Assembly: GCA_036504735.1 (NCBI GenBank) | Contig: DASXUQ010000019.1 | Location: 310,001 to 374,000 of the forward strand | DNA length: 64,000 bases | Direction of reading: 5' to 3' | Origin: a bacterium | GTDB taxonomy: Bacteria > Electryoneota > RPQS01 | In this document: positions 33,685 through 35,234 of the stretch, piece after piece | Position numbering within the stretch: the first letter of the stretch is position 1 | Layout: the number at the start of each line of letters is the position of its first letter | Translations under genes and position numbers: made by a program | The notes under the pieces: model-generated | What the model was told of the DNA's origin: nothing | Databases searched by the model: none | Seen by the model: the letters and a program-made list of their open reading frames with translations, nothing else

Positions 33685-33721
33685 GAATCCCACGGCGTGT
33701 ACGCTCTCCATTGACTCTGCC

Positions 33722-33778
33722 GTAGGGGCACGATCCGCAGAGCGAGATCTCGGCTTCGCCGGACATGTCGTGCCCGTC
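33722..33778. repeat. REP-like palindrome with a 30-bp insert in its centre
   Basis: GTAGGGGCACGA (33722-33733) and CATGTCGTGCCCG (33764-33776) are the two halves of the palindrome seen intact at 34388-34412. Here they are separated by exactly 30 bp (33734-33763), which itself begins TCCG, ends CGGA and carries a CGAGATCTCG palindrome. It lies just before the RAYT gene. Confidence 0.75.
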
Positions 33779-33794
33779 TTCAAGAACATCACAC

Positions 33795-34346
33795 ATGGAT
33801 CCTGAAGAGAAGAAGTATCCACGCAGAAGATCTGTCCGCCTTCGCGACTTCGATTACGCGAGCAACGGCGCATATTCTGTGACCGTCTGCACGCGCCAAC
33901 GCGAGTGTCTGTTCGGAGAGATCAAGGATGGCGAGCTGATCTTGAATGATCTGGGCCGAATGGTAGAGAAGGCCTGGCGGGAGATTCCGAATCATTTTCC
34001 TTCCGTGTTTCTCGATACCTTTGTGCTGATGCCCAATCATCTGCATGGCATTTTGTTGATTGATAATGGAAGGACGGGCACGGCATGCCGTGCCCCTACG
34101 ACAGAGTCCTATCAACATCCCGTGCCGGGTTCTGTGAGCACCGTGGTTCGCTCCTTCAAGGCCGCCGTGACCAAACGAGTTCGCGAGCAATCGGGCGATC
34201 CGTTTGTGGTGATTTTTCAACGCGGTTTCCACGAGAATGTGATTACCTCGCGCGGGGAACACCTTGCCCTTCGGGCCTACATCACTCGCAATCCGTTGGC
34301 TTGGGACGAGGACGAAAACAACCCGGGACATTCTGACATCCAATGA
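33795..34346 (+). CDS. REP-associated tyrosine transposase (RAYT), Y1 HUH family
   Basis: 183 residues. The start at 33795 is preferred over an in-frame ATG at 33765, which lies inside the REP palindrome. Family motifs: FDYASNGAYSVTVCTRQRECLFG, the HUH motif in MPNHLHGIL (His-x-His), FQRGFHENVI and the catalytic Tyr in YITRNPLAW. RAYTs are single-strand transposases that move or maintain REP/BIME palindromes. REP-like palindromes flank this gene on both sides (33722-33778, 34388-34412). A perfect 20-bp copy lies inside the reading frame (34076-34095), encoding an in-frame insert around RTGTACRAPT. The block separates the Gfo/Idh gene from lpxB. The catalytic residues are intact. Confidence 0.88.
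   Translation: MDPEEKKYPRRRSVRLRDFDYASNGAYSVTVCTRQRECLFGEIKDGELILNDLGRMVEKAWREIPNHFPSVFLDTFVLMPNHLHGILLIDNGRTGTACRAPTTESYQHPVPGSVSTVVRSFKAAVTKRVREQSGDPFVVIFQRGFHENVITSRGEHLALRAYITRNPLAWDEDENNPGHSDIQ
34076..34095. repeat. 20-bp perfect REP-like palindrome inside the RAYT coding sequence
   Basis: GGGCACGGCA/TGCCGTGCCC, followed by CTACGAC, the same GGGCACG core and CCTAC/GTAGG edge as the flanking elements. It keeps the frame open, adding about ten residues in a loop after the HUH motif. Confidence 0.8.
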
Positions 34347-34387
34347 ATCGTATGCGCCCATCGCAACCCGCGGCCCATGATTCCGCC

Positions 34388-34412
34388 GTAGGGGCACGAC
34401 ATGTCGTGCCCG
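34388..34412. repeat. REP-like palindrome downstream of RAYT
   Basis: A perfect 20-bp palindrome at 34392-34411 (GGGCACGACA/TGTCGTGCCC) with GTAGG on the left edge. With 33722-33778 it brackets the transposase gene. Confidence 0.8.
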
Positions 34413-34445
34413 ATGGAGCGCGAGTATTCAGAAAGGGTGCTTACA

Positions 34446-35234
34446 ATGGGTATTTGTGCATACTGTGGGCAAGACAGGAAGTTAACGCGCGAGCATATTA
34501 CCCCAAACTGGATGCATCGGGCCAATCCGGAATGGAATAACTACCTCGGCAAAATAGACAAAGTTGTAGCTGCCGATCCCGTGACCAAGGATGTTTGCGA
34601 GGAGTGCAATGGCGGGGTACTATCGGGTCTCGATTGCTATGCAAAAGACTTGTGGCAGAGGTACTTCTCTTGCTTTGCAAGTGCCGGTGAAGATCTCATC
34701 TTCGAATACGACTACGACCTTCTCGCCCGATGGCTCCTAAAGATATCCTACAATAGTGCCAGAGCCGGCAGCGAGGCCGAATGGAGTGGTCTTGTAGAGA
34801 CAGTTCCTTACATACTCGGCACTGGTGGTCGCCCGTTCGGCCTCACCGTATTTATGCACCTCATCATCCCTCATCCTGTTTCACGGGATGAAGCTCTGGT
34901 CTTGAATATCGACCCAGCTTTTCTCATCGCCGGGGGAATCGCACCCAATATGGTCCGAATGGAGGGGTACGGCGTCTTCTCGCACGACGCTCCGATGAGC
35001 GTAAGCCAACGAGTGATCATTAGGTCGTACGAATTTGGATTACTCGTTCCAGCTACGTTTGAAGGGAAGATCGAGATGGCTTTACAGAACCAAGCGGCTA
35101 AACAACTCGCCTTACCCGACGGATGGGCTGTTCTCTATCCGCGAAACCGTAAAGTGCGTGTTCGCGCGTCGGACACAACGTCGTTCGATGTCATGGAAAA
35201 CTTTGTTCATGATCATCCAGGTCTCAAGTTTTGA
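34446..35234 (+). CDS. HNH-endonuclease-like protein of unknown role
   Basis: 262 residues from the ATG at 34446 (GAAAGGG upstream); a longer frame would start inside the REP palindrome. The N-terminus has CAYCGQDRKLTREHITPNWM and, after about 25 residues, VCEECNGG. This CxxC...H...CxxC layout is that of HNH/5-methylcytosine-type endonucleases, with REHITP supplying a possible catalytic His. The remaining 200 residues match no family I recognise. Its base composition looks lower in G+C than its neighbours and its codons are less biased. With the adjacent transposase this suggests acquired DNA. It could be a small defence or mobile-element gene. Confidence 0.7.
   Translation: MGICAYCGQDRKLTREHITPNWMHRANPEWNNYLGKIDKVVAADPVTKDVCEECNGGVLSGLDCYAKDLWQRYFSCFASAGEDLIFEYDYDLLARWLLKISYNSARAGSEAEWSGLVETVPYILGTGGRPFGLTVFMHLIIPHPVSRDEALVLNIDPAFLIAGGIAPNMVRMEGYGVFSHDAPMSVSQRVIIRSYEFGLLVPATFEGKIEMALQNQAAKQLALPDGWAVLYPRNRKVRVRASDTTSFDVMENFVHDHPGLKF

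Follow-up and report, generated by a model that had tools for sequence, protein, structure and literature searches.

The window analysed here is a stretch of 64,000 nucleotides (positions 310,001 to 374,000 of contig DASXUQ010000019.1) that carries a gene for a REP-associated tyrosine transposase (RAYT, or TnpAREP) of 183 aa at 33795..34346 on the plus strand. Two REPs lie in the sense orientation on either side of it: an upstream copy of the long-hairpin subtype (33716..33776, +), with its GTAG foot at 33722, an extra hairpin of about 30 bp within its loop and its end about 20 nt 5' of the RAYT start, and a downstream copy of the short subtype (34382..34412, +), with its foot at 34388. A third unit (34075..34105, minus strand) is antisense to the RAYT gene and lies within it, reading TCTGTC-GTAG-GGGCACGGCATGCCGTGCCC-G and encoding residues 93-102, RTGTACRAPT (34071..34100, +). 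The earlier note had placed one palindrome family before, inside and after the gene, and exact copies of GTAGGGGCACG, which spans foot and arm, are indeed found in the window only at 33722-33732 (+), 34089-34099 (-) and 34388-34398 (+); with up to one mismatch there are five matches, a number that none of 100 shuffles attained. The description of the inner copy was likewise accurate: GGGCACGGCATGCCGTGCCC at 34076-34095 is a perfect 20-bp palindrome, has its GTAG foot on the minus strand and preserves the reading frame of the 183-aa ORF. The REPs run + - + across the gene (33722, 34099, 34388), the outer two direct and the middle one inverted, and the gene sits in a BIME-like alternating array in which it takes the place of the inter-REP DNA. 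The next gene (34401-35234, 277 aa as listed) encodes an HNH-like CAYCGQ..CEECN pattern and has no Pfam match; since its listed ATG falls within the downstream REP, a start at 34449 is likelier.

The RAYT protein carries the HuH and single-Y motifs of a Y1 fold. Alignment places the HuH motif, NHLH, at residues 81-84 (34035..34046, +), with a leucine that is common at this position among homologues, and Y162 of YITRNP at 34278..34280 (+), its role as the catalytic tyrosine being known from the family (PMC6006769). The NCBIfam model for REP-associated tyrosine transposases matched with an E value of 1.5e-11 but fell short of its cut-off, and a Pfam search gave no match, so the protein is a divergent member. 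A sequence search of solved structures returned nothing usable. The AlphaFold model (mean pLDDT 78) matched 4er8, a RAYT bound to a REP hairpin (E 4.6e-6), as well as IS200/IS605 transposases. Taken with the REPs that flank the gene, these family and fold matches support the designation of the locus as a REPtron. The insert was also said to lie near the active site, which holds in the sequence, where it begins about 9 residues past the HuH motif, and goes no further in the model, where RTGTACRAPT forms a low-confidence loop (pLDDT 56-59) between strand 82-89 and helix 114-133. In E. coli, the GTAG guide is reported to be contacted by W94, Q95, E100, H101 and R104 (PMC6006769). The window RAYT has F, Q, E, N and T at these positions (W94F, H101N and R104T; 34212-34248), and W, H and R are conserved there in 87/90, 71/90 and 85/90 homologues, respectively. 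Judging from these residues, guide reading may be altered or lost, and the enzyme may be retargeted, decaying or inactive on GTAG.

A count of palindrome copies across the genome, as the earlier note had proposed, revealed 35 exact occurrences of GTAGGGGCACG in 4.16 Mb, compared to 7 for a reversed control pattern. Nearly all of these copies of foot and arm are true hairpins, and GTAGGGGCACG is followed in almost all extracted copies by RCATGY-CGTGCCC or by the long form, the latter accounting for 4 of 33. The family is defined by a 31-bp unit, from -6 (TCYGYC) to +24, that is invariant or nearly so among the genome copies. The inner REP agrees with every invariant position, including the non-palindromic TCTGTC, and its homology to the upstream REP extends past the palindrome ends (20-nt arms, 95%). 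Its GCATGC subtype is seen in 8 of 28 other short copies, while both flanking REPs have the ACATGT-type arm seen in 16 of 28; the inner REP differs from both flanks in subtype and is therefore no simple copy of its neighbours. A crude codon-usage scan, which overlooked two known inner REPs that belong to other families, placed almost every other member of the family outside genes and left the copy in the RAYT as the sole clear intragenic case. A second hairpin-like element, GGTGGCCGAAGGGCCATGTCGTGCCCGTC, occurs about 20-30 nt 3' of the REP at six loci (L009, L016, L021, L025, L027 and L028), with the arm CGTGCCCGTC in common.

The window RAYT gene is present in a single copy, and the genome also encodes related RAYTs. 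Five of the six contain an inner REP, and each of the five belongs to a different REP family: GTAGGGGCACG in the window, and GTAGGGACACG, GTAGGGGCCGG, GTAGGGGCGCAC and GTAGCGCCGCAC in the others. In all five the inner REP is antisense and the upstream REP is sense, 20-27 nt before the apparent start, and all three REP sites were found in three of them (the window gene, C19:157021 and C9:246656). Elsewhere in the genome, at C9:277682-281472 (G000; L042, L039 and L177), two adjoining divergent RAYTs with different REP families lie between apparent mnmE and mnmG genes, as read by eye, and a further REP at C9:277682 scores as intragenic.

To place the insert in a wider context, we surveyed about 95 RAYT genes with their flanks, drawn from 193 genomes across Bacteria and from GTDB contigs. 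A GT[AG]G-footed hairpin was present in the linker between the HuH motif and helix alphaC at 59 of 93 loci, which shows that the RTGTACRAPT insert is not unique, as the homologue check had been meant to establish; no homologue had RAPT-like residues at this site without palindromic DNA, the case that would have spoken against the note's proposal. When a 14-bp linker match to the gene's own flanks was also counted as an inner REP, the number rose to 70 of 94, leaving about a quarter of the genes with no detectable inner REP. Footed hairpins occurred at 6.1 per kb in the linker, compared to 1.9 in the 300 bp upstream, 1.5 in the 300 bp downstream and 0.07-0.17 in conserved cores. Linker and own flanks had a 14-mer in common in 40 of 95 genes, compared to 4 genes for each of two core segments and a mean of 1.7 (maximum 6) when flanks were permuted among genes 300 times. 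The inserts themselves range from none through single, double-footed and dimer forms to a triple tandem, mostly in two reading phases; antisense phase 2 is rare (2/42 single antisense inserts). A constraint on reading phase was not upheld, as the bias lost significance once collapsed by family (p = 0.09). Linkers with a REP were not longer either (29 vs 28 aa with the strict detector), since degenerate REPs that this detector misses fill the other group, and the absence of REPs from C-terminal tails is weak evidence of specificity that we did not uphold, because third-phase sense REPs would end the ORF.

Several further features were seen among the surveyed genes. In 11 genes from 6 families (L062, L071, L076, L081, L089, L095, L099, L104, L112, L116 and L119), the RAYT ends on a TAG stop codon that the downstream sense REP provides with its GTAG foot. 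Some linkers are tandem REP-derived expansions: L104 has three GTIYRAPT units, L136 has three REP dimers and L134 has many GQAQI units. REPIN-like dimers with feet outward (+ then -) are found in many linkers (L050, L075, L086, L088, L094, L097, L103, L107, L111, L114, L136, L141, L144, L205, L206, L214, L253 and L267), and the opposite order, - then +, in L249 only. Relatives of the window RAYT are also encoded on two IMG/VR viral contigs (L185 and L186), a possible route of transfer.

Closely related genes revealed that inserts turn over. The RAYTs of Marinifilum breve (L052) and Marinifilum sp. D714 (L054) are 82% identical in their cores and contain unrelated inner REPs, which shows turnover within the genus. 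In the D714 genome, the D714 insert type occurs at 14 sites, including the two inserts themselves, and the control had no match; sites of the M. breve type, counted in this genome only, were absent from it. Within a genus, then, inner REPs replace one another and correspond to the REP family that the host carries at present.

We found that the orientation of the inner REP is coupled to that of the outer ones, an element that is new to this analysis and lies outside what the earlier note had proposed. A single inner REP was inverted to the nearest flanking REP of the same family in 29 of 31 comparisons and, counted by family, in 10 of 10. Where a gene had an insert and both flanks were found, the flanks were direct in 12/12 cases by script, or 14/14 with the window and C9:246656 added by eye. 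Among genes with no detected insert, flanks were inverted in 7 of 9 in the first sample, two of the nine being doubtful (L041 with weak feet and L099 with a degenerate insert). In a fresh sample, for which the prediction was recorded beforehand, insert-free genes had inverted flanks in 5/6 cases and direct flanks in 1/6. This sample held six genes without an inner REP and none with both an inner REP and two detected flanks, so the part of the rule that concerns direct flanks depends on the first sample. Pooled, the insert-free genes had inverted flanks in 12 of 15 cases, six of these 12 coming from one family (f23), and a hand tally collapsed by family gave direct-to-inverted ratios of about 5:0 with an insert and 1:5 without (Fisher p = 0.015). 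Inner dimers alternated with the upstream REP in 6/6 cases and with the downstream REP in 0/3. A limited search of the literature returned no earlier description of a relation between inner and outer REP orientation.

Altogether, we think it likely that the RAYT gene of this REPtron harbours a resident, inverted copy of the genome's own REP, placed by RAYTs in a tolerant loop and kept matched by repeated insertion or replacement. This reading builds on the family identity of the insert, its frame, its usual site, its inversion to the outer copies, its match to the host and its turnover. RAYTs, being enzymes that recognise GTAG-footed hairpins on single-stranded DNA, would place REPs in their own gene, in the loop that connects the HuH strand to helix C and that would tolerate them owing to its flexibility. 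Repeated insertion or replacement would then keep the insert matched to the REPs of the genome, the alternating + - + layout would reflect the mode of action of the RAYT, and the outcome would be an array that resembles the basic BIME module, the gene taking the place of the inter-REP DNA. The earlier note had suggested that the copy may be the trace of a transposition into the RAYT gene itself. That the insert belongs to the genome's own REP family supports this, but such insertions recur across the enzyme family and this one is not a private event. Three observations weigh against resident insertion in its simple form: the linker is denser in REPs than the flanks, an excess not expected from tolerance alone; the enzyme of the window has three changed guide-contact residues and may no longer act on GTAG; and inner dimers do not follow the orientation rule on their downstream side. 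The analysis found neither a transposition event nor an empty site of the same RAYT gene.

The orientation data also bear on a different possibility, in which the inverted inner REP and its direct flanks form a BIME module that the RAYT processes on both strands and the inner REP is retained as an aid to persistence or movement of the gene. The flanks behave as such a module would have them, being direct in all 12 (or, with two by eye, 14) genes with an inner REP and inverted in 12/15 without one, and the model of BIME formation of Nunvar et al. 2010 requires two direct REPs with one inverted between them. However, we saw no gene-bearing module that had been duplicated or excised, half of the inverted cases (6/12) are one family (f23) and inner dimers violate the rule downstream, and so we regard this as possible but not probable. 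The same modest standing applies to its broader form, in which the inner REP would be a working part rather than a scar, the gene would persist or move as an inter-REP segment, and two-REP units (inverted flanks, no inner copy) and three-REP units (direct flanks, inverted inner copy) would be alternative functional designs of the REPtron.

Selection could instead act through expression: the RAYT might bind its own DNA or mRNA at the inner and upstream hairpins, or the mRNA hairpin might slow ribosomes, which would limit expression and favour retention of the inner copy. REPs can influence translation (Liang et al. 2015, as cited in PMC6006769), the RNA hairpin of the inner copy is stable (-23.8 kcal/mol, z -3.4), in the five insert-bearing RAYTs of this genome the upstream REP regularly precedes the start by 20-27 nt, and REPs are denser in the linker than in the flanks. 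A regulatory hairpin, on the other hand, need not match or follow the mobile REP family of the genome, yet the inserts do, and about a quarter of the surveyed genes lack a detectable inner REP. Self-regulation is not needed to explain the data, and we consider it unlikely.

The turnover of inserts argues against a single ancient insertion that was inherited with the gene and held similar to other REPs through gene conversion. Inserts occupy the same site in distant phyla, mostly in two reading phases, and clades of the tree tend toward common REP types, as such descent would predict. However, they vary from none to a triple tandem, those of the Marinifilum orthologues are unrelated and differ in number and orientation, and the bias in reading phase falls short of significance at the level of families (p 0.09); we find this origin rather improbable. 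The tree of 93 cores resolved too poorly to date the insert or to place the window RAYT. It is very doubtful that the peptide encoded by the REP helps to recognise the REP, so that a change of REP alters the specificity of the protein: REP DNA and linker peptide necessarily change together, but the loop has low confidence in the window model, Quentin et al. judge it peripheral, away from DNA and the catalytic site (PMC6006769), and the peptide phase differs between genes. A chance palindrome in the coding region, for which we found no support, is ruled out by the 31-bp identity to the genome family and by recurrence across genomes.

We return to the resident inverted REP and to what it adds. 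REPs in coding regions touch on how REPs spread and why RAYTs are kept. The locus contributes a further example to a family trait already described. To that trait we add that the inner copy is almost always inverted with respect to the outer ones and is a member of the REP family of its host genome. An inner REP that tracks the current family of its host, with its orientation tied to the flanks, records REP insertion under the constraint of a reading frame, and the alternating orientation is a concrete prediction for models of how RAYTs use REPs.

Quentin et al. 2018 (PMC6006769) have already reported REPs inserted in frame inside tnpAREP genes of TnpAREP subclass 2.4, which they map to RAYT group 4 of Bertels et al. 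2017. Like the window gene, members of this subclass have an in-frame REP between HuH and Y, a variable beta3-alphaC insertion, flanking REPs and no extra C-terminal domain, and they are scattered across phyla, as are the inserts in our survey. Their consensus NH[IFV]H, WQ and YIxNNP, which are not strict requirements, compare with NHLH, FQ and YITRNP in the window, and we place the window RAYT close to subclass 2.4. The orientation of the inner REP relative to the flanks is not stated for the subclass in PMC6006769. According to Nunvar et al. 2010 (PMC2817692), the REPs on the two sides of a RAYT gene are always inverted to each other, and a basic BIME module consists of two direct REPs that enclose an inverted one. 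As in the classical REPtron of that study, GTAG-footed REPs bound the window gene close to its start and stop, but the classical flanks are mutually inverted, whereas those of the window are direct (both +) with a third, inverted REP inside the gene. The locus matches the basic BIME module in having two direct REPs and an inverted one between, and differs from it in that the inter-REP DNA is RAYT coding sequence and no repeated module copies were seen in the genome; as the gene is single-copy, we describe the locus as a BIME module in layout only and do not file it as a BIME. Di Nocera et al. 2013 (PMC3733652) described REPs inside other genes and noted that a REP foot is often the source of a TAG stop codon. 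These intragenic GTAG/CGTC REPs resemble the inner REP of the window in being inserted in frame into coding DNA, plausibly in flexible loops, but they lie in unrelated host genes and at mostly varied sites, whereas here the host is the RAYT itself and the site is a single recurring one.
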